Shown here: one piece after another, positions 32,362-38,359 of the stretch
How positions within the stretch are numbered: position 1 is the stretch's first letter
Layout of the letters: each line of letters begins with the position of its first letter
Source of the DNA: Yersinia proxima
GTDB taxonomy: Bacteria > Pseudomonadota > Gammaproteobacteria > Enterobacterales > Enterobacteriaceae
NCBI RefSeq assembly: GCF_902170785.1
Contig: NZ_CABHYG010000020.1
Location: forward strand, 124,001-188,000
Length of the DNA stretch: 64,000 bases
Reading direction: 5' to 3'
Program-made: the position numbers and the translations under genes
The notes under the pieces: generated by a model
What the model saw: only the letters and a program-made list of their open reading frames with translations
Told to the model about the DNA's origin: nothing
Database searches by the model: none

Positions 32362-32717
32362 CACAGGGGCATCATCCTTGTGCGATATCAGACGGAGAAA
32401 ATAGGATCTTCTTATACATTGCCGGTCAGGGCGATGGGAATAGTGGGAGATCAATTATTGCTAAATTATGTCATAGATCCTACGCCATTTTATTTAATGG
32501 AGAGTTGTACTTCCTGATAACCCATAAATAAATTTTAGTTTAATAAACAATAAATTAATAAATAAAGTCAGCCAAACTACGATAAAAATCCGCCCCTGAA
32601 TTGGTTAAAATACGAGCTATTCCTGAGTTGTATATTTGATTGACGGAATAAAGGATAACCGGCAGAGGTGATAGCACTCTGCGACTTCTTCAGTGCACAT
32701 ACCAGGACGGTGATGTT
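32362..32717. promoter_or_regulatory. Divergent intergenic region between the exporter and the CdiA-type gene
   Basis: 356 bp without a recognisable gene and AT-rich in the middle (32500-32580). It must hold both promoters. The TpsA start has only a weak ribosome-binding match (GGTGAT). No tpsB-like gene or fragment was seen here. Confidence 0.5.
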
Positions 32718-35700
32718 ATGGCAGAATTCAGTAATACACGGACGCGAATCGCCAGTTGGCTTCTGATTTATCTTACCGCAGTACAACCTCTTCATCCGGC
32801 TATTGCTGCCGGTATTCAAGCAGATAACCGCCAAACTAAAGTTCATACTCGCGGCCAAATTCCAGTCGTCGATATTGTTGCCCCTAATGCAGCTGGGATC
32901 TCTCATAATCGTTATCTCAATTTTAATGTAGCCACAGCGGGAGCGGTACTGAATAACGCCACAATAGGTGGGTATTCAGAGCTGGCGGGGCGACTGGCTG
33001 CTAATCCACATTTAACCAGAAATAGCGCACAGCTTATTATCAACGAAGTCACCGGTCATCAGCCCTCAGCATTGGAGGGGCAGTTGGAAGTTTTCGGTCA
33101 AAAGGCAGATGTGATTATTGCCAACCCTAATGGTTTGTACTGCAATGGCTGCAATTTTAGCAATGCCAGCGGCATCACTTTAACCACCGGTAGGCCGGTA
33201 TTCAATTCTCAGGGTGAACTGGATAGCCTAACTGTTACCACAGACAAAGCTATTGCTGTGGGGCTTAAAGGGTTTAATGCTCTTAATCAGAACAATGTGG
33301 CAATCATCAGTCGTGGACTAAATCTTCACGGTGAAATCCGTGCTAATCAGCTTGATGTGATACTGGGGAGCAATCAGGTTGACTATCAAAACAGTGATAT
33401 TCAGCCGTTATTATCAAAAGAGACAAAGCCCTTAATAGTATTAGATACCAAAGAGTTGGGCGGTATGTATGCTAATAGTATTCGATTAATATCAACGGAA
33501 AAAGCGAACACGGTTAATGCTAAAAATATCGTCAGCCATAAAGGTGATATTAGGTTTGATGTCGCAGGTGATATTAATTTAGGTAATATTACGGCGAAAA
33601 ATAACCTGAATATTACCAGCAAGAAGACCACCCTTGCCCAGGGCGATAAATTGCTCAGTGGGCGTGATATTACATTGGTAAACACCGAATTTAATAACTT
33701 AGGGCAGGTAACAGCAGAGGGTGATCTGCGTATTTTTAGTGATCAAGTGCGTAATAGCGGTCAACAAGCACATATTATTGCTAACAATAATATGTGGATA
33801 CAAAAAGATGCTGATGGGAATAAAAACACTCGAGTCGAAAATCAGTCAGGCACCATTAAAACAAATCGTGGTGACTTAATTATTCGCACCGAAAAACTGG
33901 AAAATACCCGTCAAATGGTAACTACTGGGTGGCAAAAACTAACACCGGGTTCGCGCCAGCTTAATGATTACGATGACGATAGTGATTCACCGGGTAAAGT
34001 TATCATCATATTAGAATACGATTGGCCCACCCGAGCACTACCCGAAAAATGGTTTGGTGCTATCGAAACCGGTGAATGGCAAAGCGGTGTCTGGCGCGTC
34101 AATACTGAAAAAAATATCTGGCAACTGAATGCATCATCACCGGCTGCCACCCTGCATTCAGGGAGTAATCTGTATATTAATGCCAGCCAGTTAGAGAATA
34201 AAAGTAGTCATATAGGAGCAGCAAAAGATATTTTTCTGACCGGTAATGATTTTTTAAACAGCAGCGCCAGTAACTGGGTGAAAGATGAGTTTCGTTATTA
34301 TAGAGTGGATTATCAGTGGCCGGATTATTATGTTTTTCATGACGAACGATTATATTACCAGTTAACTGAGGCTGAAAAATACAGAGCGACAGTCACGGCT
34401 GGTGGAAATGTCGTGCTGGACTTTAACAACAATATTCAGTTACAACGCCCGGTGCCGGAGGTAGATAAAGCTGCTCCCGTATCATTATCTGAGCTCACAC
34501 CGGCGGTATTAAAAGGCCATAATATTTTACTGCATGGTAAGACTATTTCCAGCAGTGACTTAATACAGGCCAGTGGCGATATTACCTTTATTGCAGAAAA
34601 TAGCATTGCATTAGCCAACAGTAGTTTGCGTGGCCAGGATATCTCACTGACGGCACTGAATGATATTCACTCATCATCAAGTGAATTATTGGGGAGGAAC
34701 ATTTTATTACTGAGCCGAGAGGGGAATATTAAAACAAACTCACCTGACAGGTCTTCGCGTCAGCCAGATGATGCGCAGGTATTTAATCGCATTAAAGCCA
34801 GCCACGATTTTACTGCTATTTCCGCTAAAGATATTCAATTAACCGACACCCTTATCCATCCGGCAGCTAACATTAGCTTGTCCGCCGGACATGATATTAA
34901 TATTTCACATATACTCAAGCCCGAAGAAATCCTAATTACCGATGGATTTTTAGATCCAGGAAAGTATCTGAAACAGATTAACCAACTATTATCGTTATCC
35001 AATCGATTAACCAGTAGTGGCGATATTACACTGAATTCCGGTAATAATATGATATTACAGGGGATTAAGCTAAATGCTGGGCAAGAAATTAACTTGCACG
35101 CTGCCCGTGATATTCAACTGGAACCCTATAATAGAACTGTCTGGTCAGATCTTATGGGTCGTTATAATAACAACCATCAAGGTTCTGTATTTTTTAATAT
35201 ATTTCCACGCTCCGAAACTCCTGATTATACAGTTCAGATAAATGCCAAAGGCAATGCCTTAATTAATGCGGGTCGCGATATTCTGACTCGGGGCAGCAAT
35301 ATTAATGTAGGTAATAACCTCACCTTATTAGCCGGGCAACATATTCAGCTGGCGGCACTGCCATACACTGGTACTGATTGGACTGATAGCTCACGCTACA
35401 CCCGCCATGCCGCTACTCGCCTCAAAGCCGGCAACACTCTGAATGCGGTGGCCAATCACCAGCTTATCACCCAGGGGGCAGAGCTCGCTGCTGGCGGTGA
35501 TATGACACTGACTTCCGGCGGCGATATGCGCTTTGAATCGGTATTGAATGAGAGTCATTACGGCGGTGGTGATAATTCCAGCTACAAAAAACTCCAGCAA
35601 TCCACTCAACTCAACAGCGGCGGTGTGCTGACATTAATTTCAAACGGCAGCATGTTGTTTCAGGCCACCCAGTTGATGGCTAAAAAAGTGATGGATATCG

Positions 35701-37982
35701 CCGCCAAAGGCGGCTACCTGTTCGCGCAAGCGATGGAAGAAACCAGCCATTCGGAGCAGCACTGGCAGACCCGCAAATGGTGGGGGCGCAAAAAATCACA
35801 CCATAATGTGCAGCATGTTGCTACCAACAAAGTCACTGAGTTTACTGCTGAGGGTGATATCAGTTTACTCAGCCGCGATGACAGCACCTATCAGGCCAGC
35901 AAAATTGCCGCCGGTCAGAACGCCAAACTGACCAGCACCCACGGCAAAGTGATATTTGAAGCAGTTAAGGACAGCACTTTCCAGCAAAAAACTACGTTAT
36001 CGAAAGGCTTCTATATCAAAAATACCGACAAGGGATATCTGGCTGAAAAATGGGTATTACCCACAATCCAAACCGGCGGTGAATTAACTGTTGATGCCGC
36101 GCAGGGTATCCGCGCTGATGTAACAGTGAAAAATAGCGAGTCATTGCGCAGTGCTATTACTGCATTGAGTAAGACTCCAGGTAATGAATGGCTCAACGAT
36201 TTGAACCTGCGCGATGGTGTGCAGTGGCAAAAAGTCATGGATGCCTACCACCGTTGGGATCACAAAAATGAGCAACTGAACCCTGTAGTGGCGGCAGTAA
36301 TAGCTATTGCAGTAGCGGCTGCTACCGCGGGTTCAGGGCTGGTGGCAACAGCAAACACCGCTGTGGGAGGCGGGGTGGCAGGCGGTGCAGTAACCGGAGG
36401 AATGTCGGCGCTGGCATCGCAGGCCGCAGTGTCTTTGTTGAATAACAAGGGCGATATCTCCAAAACTTTCAAAGATCTGGGGAGTAAATCGTCGGTCAAA
36501 TCGCTGGCAACTTCCATGGCGCTGGGGGGCGCTTTAGCCGGTTTTGATGCTGCGATGGGCTGGGATGCTGCGGCTAAAGGCGCTAAAACGGCGAGCACGA
36601 CCAGTGCCAGATTACCTCAACTTAGTCATGGTGACTGGAGCAAGGTCGCCCAGCGGGTGGCCGGTCAGTCGATTATCAGTTCCAGCCTGAACACCGCCAT
36701 TAATGGTGGCAGCTTTAAAGATAATCTGGCCACGGCATTACTAACCAGTGTGGGGTCTCAGTTGCATGCTGAGGGCGCTAATTTAATCGGTAATAATGGC
36801 GAAGTATTAGGCGTGTCGGGCAAAGCCTTGAGCCATGCGCTGGTTGCTGGCGTTGCGGCTGAAATCGGTGGTGGTAATGCGAAAGGTGCCGCCGCCGGAG
36901 CACTGGCCGCCGAGCTGGCCGGTGTGGTGATGGGTGAGAATATCATCGGGTCGCAGCAGTGGCAGGAGCAACAGGCGCAGTTTAGCCGTGTTGCGGGGGC
37001 TATTGCTGGTGTATTAGCGACTGGAAAAGTAGAGGGGGCATATAGTGGTGCTAATGCTGCCGAAGTGGTTGATAGATTTAACCGGCAATTGCATCTGGAT
37101 GAAATTAAAGCGGTTAATGAACTGGCTAAGGGTAGCAACGTTAAACAAGAGCGTTTCCTGGCAGCATCTTGCCGTCAGGTAAACTGTACAGCACAAGAGG
37201 CTCTCAACTCGGCTGAACGTGCGGGTGCTGAATTATTAATGGCAAAGTATCCTGAAACGCCAGAAGAAGACGGTATTCTGCGCAATTACTGGATACAAAA
37301 AGAAAAAAAACGTTTTGGTAATTACCCTGCCCTGACCGGTTTTGAGCAAATCCAGTTATTTACCTATAGTGATGCGGATAAACTCTCTGATAGTCAAAAA
37401 TTTGCTAAAAATCAGTTGATTGAAGAGGCTTCCAATCTAACCGGTTGGTCTAGAGAAGCAGTCGAAGCCCTTGGGGTTTCTGCGTCGCTGGCTGGCGTGG
37501 TGCGGGGGAAAAGGTTTGGGCAAACAGGAGCAGCTTATCCGACTGGAATTAGCTTTAATATCAATCAGAAGAATCACCTAGCGAAGTTTGACGGAATAAC
37601 TCAAAGAAATGGAATTGGAGGGACACATAATGCTGATGCTTTCAATCAGGCTGTATCCACAAATGGTGTGAAAATTATTGGACAAACACCGGGTTCAGCA
37701 AATGGTATTACTGAAATTTCATATCAAATTCCAGCATATAACCGAGCGGGAAACGTTGTTGGTTATAAAGCAAAAGTATTCACTAAAACAGTCTATGACC
37801 CGAAAGTTTTCTCAGATCAAAAGATGTTAGAGCTTGGGCAACAAGCTGCATCAAATGGTTATAAGTCAGCTATAGCTTCAGGAGTTAGAGAATATACATC
37901 AACAGCAGATGGTGTTAAATTCCAAGTTTATTTAGATCAAAAAACTAGCGCTGTGATTAACTTTTTCCCGGTAACTAAATGA
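32718..37982 (+). CDS. CdiA-type two-partner secretion exoprotein with C-terminal EndoU-like nuclease toxin
   Basis: 1754 residues. A signal peptide (~1-31, ending AIAA) is followed by the TPS secretion domain (~35-290) with NPNGLYCNGCNF, then FHA-type beta-helix repeats, a Gly/Ala-rich DUF637-like pretoxin region (~1180-1450), the linker VDRFNRQLH, and a variable C-terminus. The last ~125 residues resemble bacterial EndoU RNases: GGTHNADAF with His1637, then KTVYDPKVFSDQKMLELG and DGVKFQVYLD. The protein would be exported by a TpsB and deliver a tRNase-type toxin into neighbouring cells. It is short for CdiA (often about 3000 residues or more), lacks a VENN motif, and has no cdiB next to it. 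The immunity gene overlaps its stop codon. Confidence 0.85.
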   Translation: MAEFSNTRTRIASWLLIYLTAVQPLHPAIAAGIQADNRQTKVHTRGQIPVVDIVAPNAAGISHNRYLNFNVATAGAVLNNATIGGYSELAGRLAANPHLTRNSAQLIINEVTGHQPSALEGQLEVFGQKADVIIANPNGLYCNGCNFSNASGITLTTGRPVFNSQGELDSLTVTTDKAIAVGLKGFNALNQNNVAIISRGLNLHGEIRANQLDVILGSNQVDYQNSDIQPLLSKETKPLIVLDTKELGGMYANSIRLISTEKANTVNAKNIVSHKGDIRFDVAGDINLGNITAKNNLNITSKKTTLAQGDKLLSGRDITLVNTEFNNLGQVTAEGDLRIFSDQVRNSGQQAHIIANNNMWIQKDADGNKNTRVENQSGTIKTNRGDLIIRTEKLENTRQMVTTGWQKLTPGSRQLNDYDDDSDSPGKVIIILEYDWPTRALPEKWFGAIETGEWQSGVWRVNTEKNIWQLNASSPAATLHSGSNLYINASQLENKSSHIGAAKDIFLTGNDFLNSSASNWVKDEFRYYRVDYQWPDYYVFHDERLYYQLTEAEKYRATVTAGGNVVLDFNNNIQLQRPVPEVDKAAPVSLSELTPAVLKGHNILLHGKTISSSDLIQASGDITFIAENSIALANSSLRGQDISLTALNDIHSSSSELLGRNILLLSREGNIKTNSPDRSSRQPDDAQVFNRIKASHDFTAISAKDIQLTDTLIHPAANISLSAGHDINISHILKPEEILITDGFLDPGKYLKQINQLLSLSNRLTSSGDITLNSGNNMILQGIKLNAGQEINLHAARDIQLEPYNRTVWSDLMGRYNNNHQGSVFFNIFPRSETPDYTVQINAKGNALINAGRDILTRGSNINVGNNLTLLAGQHIQLAALPYTGTDWTDSSRYTRHAATRLKAGNTLNAVANHQLITQGAELAAGGDMTLTSGGDMRFESVLNESHYGGGDNSSYKKLQQSTQLNSGGVLTLISNGSMLFQATQLMAKKVMDIAAKGGYLFAQAMEETSHSEQHWQTRKWWGRKKSHHNVQHVATNKVTEFTAEGDISLLSRDDSTYQASKIAAGQNAKLTSTHGKVIFEAVKDSTFQQKTTLSKGFYIKNTDKGYLAEKWVLPTIQTGGELTVDAAQGIRADVTVKNSESLRSAITALSKTPGNEWLNDLNLRDGVQWQKVMDAYHRWDHKNEQLNPVVAAVIAIAVAAATAGSGLVATANTAVGGGVAGGAVTGGMSALASQAAVSLLNNKGDISKTFKDLGSKSSVKSLATSMALGGALAGFDAAMGWDAAAKGAKTASTTSARLPQLSHGDWSKVAQRVAGQSIISSSLNTAINGGSFKDNLATALLTSVGSQLHAEGANLIGNNGEVLGVSGKALSHALVAGVAAEIGGGNAKGAAAGALAAELAGVVMGENIIGSQQWQEQQAQFSRVAGAIAGVLATGKVEGAYSGANAAEVVDRFNRQLHLDEIKAVNELAKGSNVKQERFLAASCRQVNCTAQEALNSAERAGAELLMAKYPETPEEDGILRNYWIQKEKKRFGNYPALTGFEQIQLFTYSDADKLSDSQKFAKNQLIEEASNLTGWSREAVEALGVSASLAGVVRGKRFGQTGAAYPTGISFNINQKNHLAKFDGITQRNGIGGTHNADAFNQAVSTNGVKIIGQTPGSANGITEISYQIPAYNRAGNVVGYKAKVFTKTVYDPKVFSDQKMLELGQQAASNGYKSAIASGVREYTSTADGVKFQVYLDQKTSAVINFFPVTK

Positions 37983-38329
37983 TGAATGAGTATATTTTTG
38001 AGCGGATAGATTATAATAATGACCCTGAGTGGGTCGTGAAAGATTTTTTCAACTCAATGAATCTACAGAGTAAATTCCTATGGTCTTTACCTTTTATTAT
38101 AAAAAAAATAGGCTGCGTTGTTAATGAAACCTATTGTCATTTTCCTGATTTAGATGATCCTGATCCTGAATGTCATTTCGACGGCATAATGTTTGGCGTC
38201 TGGGAAGGTGAGGTTATTGTTCCAGAGTCCGTAGGTTTTGAATATGTCAGATTAGCATGTGAAAAGTATCTCCAGCTTCATCCCGAAGATGCCGATAAAG
38301 TTAAAACCTTACTTACCCAACTACCTTAA
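37979..38329 (+). CDS. CdiI-like immunity protein for the EndoU-type toxin
   Basis: A 116-residue acidic soluble protein (FPDLDDPDPECHFDGIMFG, QLHPEDADKV) with no signal peptide. It starts in an ATGA overlap with the toxin gene's stop and is more AT-rich than the housekeeping genes. Position, size and acidity are those of the cognate immunity protein that neutralises a CdiA C-terminal nuclease. Function is inferred mainly from context. Two ATGs occur in a row at the start. Confidence 0.8.
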   Translation: MMNEYIFERIDYNNDPEWVVKDFFNSMNLQSKFLWSLPFIIKKIGCVVNETYCHFPDLDDPDPECHFDGIMFGVWEGEVIVPESVGFEYVRLACEKYLQLHPEDADKVKTLLTQLP

Positions 38330-38332
38330 TCA

Positions 38333-38359
38333 AAAATCCCGGCCAAAAACCGGGATTTT
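38333..38359. terminator. Bidirectional terminator between the immunity gene and speD
   Basis: Perfect 10-bp stem AAAATCCCGG (38333-38342) / CCGGGATTTT (38350-38359) with a 7-nt loop. A-rich and T-rich arms make it work in both directions between convergent genes. Confidence 0.88.

Follow-up and report, generated by a model that had tools for sequence, protein, structure and literature searches.

Background

It is usual to regard contact-dependent inhibition (CDI) loci as self-contained cdiB-cdiA-cdiI units; the VENN pretoxin motif is a common, not a universal, feature of their CdiA proteins. In Bordetella (FhaS) and Haemophilus (LspA1/LspA2), several TpsA proteins reportedly share one TpsB. 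According to a review, some TpsBs secrete more than one TpsA (PMC5422565), and a study in Burkholderia shows BcpB transporters that export non-cognate BcpA toxins (PMC10449530); therefore, an arrangement in which one TpsB is able to export several TpsA proteins is of a kind already known. In that study each of the four systems of a B. dolosa strain has its own bcpB, whereas no copy of the Yersinia locus described here has one. The Xenorhabdus CDI system of PMC5131962 is a different, VENN-type system. Among titles and abstract openings we found no description of a CDI locus kept without its exporter across many species of a genus.

The toxin and immunity proteins of the Yersinia proxima locus have their closest described counterparts in CdiA-CT/CdiI of Escherichia coli STEC O31 (5hkq), both chains of which can be aligned with them over nearly the full length; one difference lies in the carrier, which in Y. 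proxima is a 1754-residue DUF637-type TpsA with no cdiB beside it. The carrier resembles DUF637-type TpsA loci with tpsB in other genera, with homology over much of residues 1-1460 (pieces ~30-62% identical) and with TPS domains that are the nearest relatives outside the clade of Yersinia orphans. An ShlB/FhaC-type tpsB stands directly upstream in nine of the 15 homologous loci examined, whereas the Yersinia orphans have none. Here we argue that the Y. proxima genes probably constitute a working CDI locus whose CdiA would be exported by a TpsB encoded elsewhere.

Results

Within the window, by which we mean the whole stretch of 64,000 nucleotides analysed, a tpsA/cdiA-type ORF occupies positions 32718..37982 of the plus strand and encodes 1754 aa, open throughout, and its stop overlaps, in an ATGA, the start of a 116-aa ORF (37979..38329, plus strand). 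Upstream lie acnB, yacL and a DMT-type exporter gene (minus strand), named from sequence, and downstream speD and speE (minus strand), named from sequence and by match to annotated E. coli genes. The PanC encoded in the window differs, by our count, at about one residue in ten from chain 3q10_A, which is from Y. pestis, and the plague bacterium was therefore rejected as the source. An earlier note on this DNA had already read the intact frame, the overlapping immunity-like gene and the DMT and speD neighbours in this way. Direct reading places an AGGA ribosome-binding-like site and the ATG start of tpsA at 32704..32720 (plus strand), AGGA and ATGG being conserved across the 12 upstream regions that were aligned (those of 10 orthologues and two remnants; the copies G019 and G002b were left out). 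A conserved leader element of the ATCAGCCAAAC type, recognisable in the same 12 regions (32568..32589, plus strand), is a possible promoter region; a consensus scan returned no sigma-70 site at this element, and a promoter scan gave 16 sites versus 13.0 (sd 3.2) in shuffles, i.e. no excess. Behind the 116-aa ORF, a terminator-like hairpin (AAAATCCCGG-CCAAAAA-CCGGGATTTT; 38333..38359, plus strand) was read by eye and was unflagged by the scan.

The encoded protein has the build of a CdiA. A signal sequence, judged by eye only, precedes the TPS secretion domain (PF05860, residues 38-288, E 1.5e-43; 32829..33581, plus strand), which is also matched by TIGR01901, carries an NPNG motif at residue 136 and belongs to the monophyletic orphan clade described below. 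The protein further has five stretches of haemagglutinin-type repeats (Fil_haemagg_2, PF13332), a central exchanged module of about residues 420-950 (33975..35567, plus strand) that is a candidate receptor-binding region, and a DUF637 domain (PF04830, residues 1224-1395, E 2.1e-54; 36387..36902, plus strand). The VENN pretoxin motif is absent and the junction with a polymorphic C-terminal part (CT) is marked instead by NRQLH at 1455, from which a segment common to G002, G005 and G024 extends over 37080..37538 (plus strand); it is probably the cytoplasm-entry domain. Four cysteines are present, two in the TPS domain (142 and 145) and two in the presumed entry domain (1485 and 1490), and conserved entry-domain cysteines are described for CdiA in a review (PMC9086364). 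The EndoU ribonuclease toxin domain closes the protein at about residues 1615-1751 (37560..37970, plus strand), and cdiI follows directly downstream. TPS domain, repeats, pretoxin region and EndoU-like end were thus rightly recognised from the letters alone, and the protein is shorter than typical CdiA, as had been remarked; this holds for the class, but its nine open full-length orthologues span 1541-1892 residues.

The EndoU_bacteria match (PF14436, residues 1627-1752) is marginal by score, 26.5 bits against a cut-off of 25.3, and became firm once the CT was aligned to the solved structure of the STEC O31 toxin chain (5hkq_A, E 2.3e-45). The active-site residues of the STEC O31 EndoU toxin are given as H187, H204, K261, T262 and H321 in PMC9086364. 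Manual mapping onto the 5hkq_A alignment showed four of the five to be conserved in Y. proxima (the first two His residues, the Lys and the Thr next to it), so that the EndoU His-His-Lys triad is present, and the position aligned with H321 is F. The 116-aa protein matched the STEC O31 immunity chain (5hkq_I, E 3.7e-27), CdiI_4 (PF18624, 80 bits vs a 25.9 cut-off) and NCBIfam immun_CdiI (NF033826, 110.5 bits vs a 60 cut-off), and is the cdiI immunity gene product.

No cdiB/tpsB adjoins this cdiA, as it would in a complete cdiBAI operon. The DMT ORF, taken from its most upstream start, and tpsA are about 264 bp apart, which is too short for a tpsB, and a search of 5 kb around the window gene and around each orthologue in 25 genomes of the genus found none, confirming the absence on both sides that the earlier note had pointed out. 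A hidden or decayed tpsB beside the gene was discarded after tblastn with eight TpsB queries (E up to 1e-6) returned nothing in the flanks of 13 orthologous or remnant loci from 12 genomes. A contig-edge artefact could be set aside as well: across the 25 genomes, 111 out of 128 TPS rows lay within 5 kb of a same-strand TpsB, and 15 of the 17 remaining rows were the orphan tpsA family itself, counting the second copy of G002, a row doubled in G005 and two remnants. The last two rows look like contig edges: G004:C63 sits where its contig starts, and G020:C76 belongs to a locus cut short. The genome search for TpsB and paralogous TPS genes that the note had proposed showed that a TpsB is available in the same cell, as two-partner secretion demands. 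The Y. proxima genome (4.71 Mb, 23 contigs) contains five TpsB genes (PF03865), each adjoining a TPS gene, and seven TPS matches, six of which adjoin a TpsB, the exception being the window tpsA; the lack of any TpsB, which together with absent transcription had been named as refuting evidence, is therefore not the case here.

Eleven of the 25 Yersinia genomes carry an orthologue between the DMT gene and speD, none with tpsB (G000, which is Y. proxima, G002, which is Y. aleksiciae, G003, G005, G013, G016, G018, G019, G020, G023 and G024). The gene is open and full-length in nine of these carriers; the G019 orthologue has an in-frame stop within the signal region, and that of G023 is cut by contig ends, its downstream part lying beside speD on another contig. 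Remnants of the locus persist in G007 and G010, the latter with an intact 116-residue cdiI (L117 7691-8038) behind a tpsA that lost most of its length. In 12 of the 25 genomes no orthologue was found at the DMT-speD site. Two of them, G004 and G006, keep the cdiI 3' end and a hairpin similar to that at 38333..38359, indicating that the gene was once there and was then deleted; in G014 and G015 the match of the flanks to the window breaks off at roughly the same two points, with no coding remains, and the remaining eight showed no trace of the locus by these searches. Close relatives of Y. proxima have thus often lost the gene (G004, G006, G007).

Some loci showed peculiarities of their own. 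The speD-DMT gap of G022 measures 694 bp (L186 ~880-1574), versus 52-184 bp at 11 other orthologue-free sites, with no recognisable trace of tpsA in it. In G002 a second orphan copy (G002b; G002:C1 ~1.63 Mb, L115) is near-identical up to DUF637 and has a different toxin end, a small speD-like fragment behind it and a frame without ATG, GTG or TTG before about residue 38; it lies downstream of two large ORFs that we take to be rpoB and rpoC. In the G005 gene (L110 6002-11677) the opening part of the TPS region is duplicated in tandem within a single open frame.

Outside Yersinia, the tpsB-linked homologous loci were found on Klebsiella plasmids (L131, L132) and in Cedecea (L120), Photorhabdus (L123, L124, L127), Xenorhabdus (L125), Proteus (L133) and Providencia (L134). 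No tpsB was seen at L121, L122, L126, L128, L129 and L130, L122 and L130 being cut by contig ends. Three of these loci, those of Photorhabdus asymbiotica (L126), P. namnaonensis (L128) and Xenorhabdus koppenhoeferi (L129), have no tpsB in the 8 kb upstream, and P. namnaonensis also has a tpsB-linked copy (L127). In the TPS tree the 12 Yersinia orphan domains (11 carrier genomes plus the second G002 copy) formed one clade (100/100), which grouped (90/84) with the nine tpsB-linked domains of other genera. This monophyly, together with the outside relatives that keep tpsB upstream, suggests that tpsB was lost once, in an ancestor, and that the locus then survived for long, which is the simplest account and a likely one on these sequence grounds; as an alternative to vertical descent, one tpsB-less unit could have spread by homologous recombination. 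The TpsBs of the nine loci grouped (98) with a Yersinia TpsB type found in five of the 25 genomes, G003, G012, G013, G015 (by score only) and G016, three of which are carriers. Relocation of the cognate TpsB within the Y. proxima genome was rejected, as this type is absent from G000. Of the Y. proxima TpsBs it is C21, and not the Rsc-type one discussed below, that comes closest to the cognate group in the tree; it falls just outside that group on a long branch marked as unsure (86), and its type is absent, by score, from the other 10 carriers.

Comparison of synonymous divergence along the gene in 60-codon windows revealed low dS of G000 residues ~420-950 to G013 and G023 while TPS dS was near or above 1, and a dS of 0-0.11 between G005 and G016 across 421 to 1020, versus 0.36 in acnB, evidence that species have exchanged this middle part of the gene; its alleles in G018 and G024 are divergent. 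The toxin ends vary likewise. Besides the EndoU of G000, a scan of the last 300 residues of 10 copies (the 11 carriers less G000 and G023, plus G002b) identified EndoU in G024, an EC869-type nuclease in G018, G019 and G020 and a deaminase in G005, and gave no toxin-family match in G002, G002b, G003, G013 and G016. The similarity of G002 to G000 enters the EndoU domain and runs out near residue 1673; the toxin end of G002 may therefore be an EndoU that has diverged or is a chimaera. In several genomes, reading of the ORFs and repeated DUF637 pieces pointed to CT/immunity-like cassettes downstream of the gene, and similar EndoU ends are found on large TPS proteins in G014 and G016, the TPS matches of which stand beside a TpsB. 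Taken as they stand in the sequences, exchange and toxin variety are the behaviour of a polymorphic toxin in use, not of a relic.

Purifying selection acts on the orphan TPS domain, though less strongly than on its counterpart in cdiB-linked CdiA: dN/dS was 0.17, 0.28 and 0.28 in three unsaturated pairs among G013, G019 and G023, as compared, in pairs between the same or similar species, with 0.14-0.26 for tpsB-linked shlA-type (four pairs) and 0.06-0.08 for cdiA-type (cdiB-linked) TPS domains (five pairs). All 12 between-genome pairs, many of them saturated, gave 0.07-0.28 in the TPS, middle and DUF637 regions; the G000 pairs are saturated in TPS (dS above 1.2) and thus carry little weight. 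The exceptions were the signal segments of two pairs, only 35-37 codons long (0.42 and 0.57), and the pair formed by the recent duplicates G002 and G002b, with a TPS value of 0.64 at a dS of 0.018.

Which TpsB could export the protein was approached through co-occurrence and co-divergence. NCBIfam gave no name to any of the five Y. proxima TpsBs; Rsc-, Hxu- and Shl-like are labels that we presume to fit the groups of the TpsB tree, and for TpsBs that the tree does not include, the type was assigned from score, length and size of the neighbouring TPS protein. The Rsc type occurs in all 11 carriers and in 8 of the 14 other genomes (Fisher 0.017; 0.001 when genomes with remnants or scars are grouped with the carriers; neither value allows for relatedness). 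Of the carriers, nine have cdiB (G018 and G024 lack it) and 10 the HxuB-like type (G019 lacks it), and each of these two types occurs in 11 of the 14 other genomes. The Rsc-type TpsB of G018 is split over two frames, and none of the TpsB types is clearly intact throughout the carriers. In a mirror-tree test (partial r with host-gene distance removed; permutations ignore relatedness), divergence of the orphan TPS domain tracked rscB (0.67, n=11, 0/2000 permutations) and shlB (0.56, n=8), less so hxuB (0.36, n=10) and not cdiB (-0.03, n=9), the same TpsB order as in an earlier run on acnB alone; among the eight genomes with rscB, hxuB and cdiB the respective values were 0.52, -0.01 and -0.06. 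The other three orphan segments did not track rscB (-0.37, 0.00, -0.10), and rscB versus the TPS domain beside it, the positive control, gave 0.46 (n=10). Since the signal drops to 0.15 (n=8) without G002, G005 and G016, and three of the six TpsB-TpsB control pairs reached or approached the full value (rscB-hxuB 0.57, hxuB-shlB 0.86, cdiB-shlB 0.65; others 0.41, 0.07 and -0.06), the co-divergence evidence is weak. CdiB was rejected as a universal partner on both its absence in G018 and G024 and its partial r, and the Rsc-type TpsB at G000:C13:180473 would be the leading exporter candidate, a weak lead from sequence comparison. In several species two TPS genes adjoin this TpsB type. The ORF behind an open type I cdiB of G013 (L174 2749-6615) gave no TPS match, so that this exporter would be free to serve other TpsA proteins.

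Discussion

Finding orthologues with different toxins in related species points to an exporter that is probably borrowed from elsewhere. A TpsB elsewhere, one of the options that the earlier note had put forward, is favoured by the five TpsBs of the genome, the constrained TPS domain and a modular locus that species of the genus share and in which they have diversified. The 1754-residue CdiA-type protein would be made from its own leader and taken to the periplasm by its signal sequence, and a TpsB encoded elsewhere would recognise the TPS domain and export the protein in trans. The filament may then touch a neighbouring cell via the exchanged middle region, upon which the C-terminal piece after NRQLH would be released and cross the membrane through the entry domain. 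In a cell without the matching CdiI the EndoU domain is predicted to cut RNA, perhaps tRNA by analogy with STEC O31, and could so inhibit growth, while the overlapping cdiI would shield siblings. It is tempting to speculate further that, after a single ancestral loss of tpsB, the TPS domain came to fit a shared exporter, which would probably be of the Rsc type, and that receptor and toxin modules then diversified independently of a dedicated transporter; we hold this more specific history only tentatively.

Among the competing explanations, a toxin-immunity reservoir, in which the protein is not exported, CT/immunity cassettes are stored and donated by recombination to TpsB-linked CdiA, and the immunity gene is a further reason to keep the locus, fares best and still appears improbable. 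The cassettes downstream of the gene in several species, the EndoU ends of the same kind in TpsB-linked TPS proteins of G014 and G016 and the intact G010 cdiI behind a mostly deleted tpsA would all suit a store; however, a store needs no TPS domain or repeats, yet the frame is open in most carriers, the TPS and repeat regions are under purifying selection and the middle region has been exchanged too. Less probable again is that the gene is a relic, drifting since tpsB was lost and by chance still open in Y. proxima. Decay does occur, as witnessed by the deletion scars of G004 and G006, the remnants in G007 and G010, the stop in the G019 signal region and the raised dN/dS of the signal segments and of the G002-G002b pair, but the loss of tpsB appears older than the split of the carriers, the low ratios elsewhere in the gene (many from saturated pairs) speak against drift, and the toxin ends differ through exchange rather than erosion. 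Both options had been raised for the window gene, for which neither is favoured; they do apply in species where the locus has decayed, e.g. for the cdiI of G010, which outlasted the greater part of its toxin gene. Another route to neighbouring cells, through lysis, vesicles or a non-TpsB Omp85 protein (TamA, BamA), is very improbable: weak TpsB-model matches of ~580-587 residues without a TPS gene, which from their size we take to be probably TamA, occur in 11 of the 25 genomes, Y. proxima not among them, but the TPS domain is kept and constrained though such routes would not require it, and nothing was found that points to them.

Export in trans by a TpsB encoded elsewhere is thus the reading that we retain. 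If it is true, a toxin/immunity locus has persisted in many species without an exporter of its own, and CDI effectors can live as clients of the TpsB of another system. The specificity between TPS domains and TpsBs would then be testable by evolution, in a single TPS family of which some members keep the ancestral partner and others have lost it.
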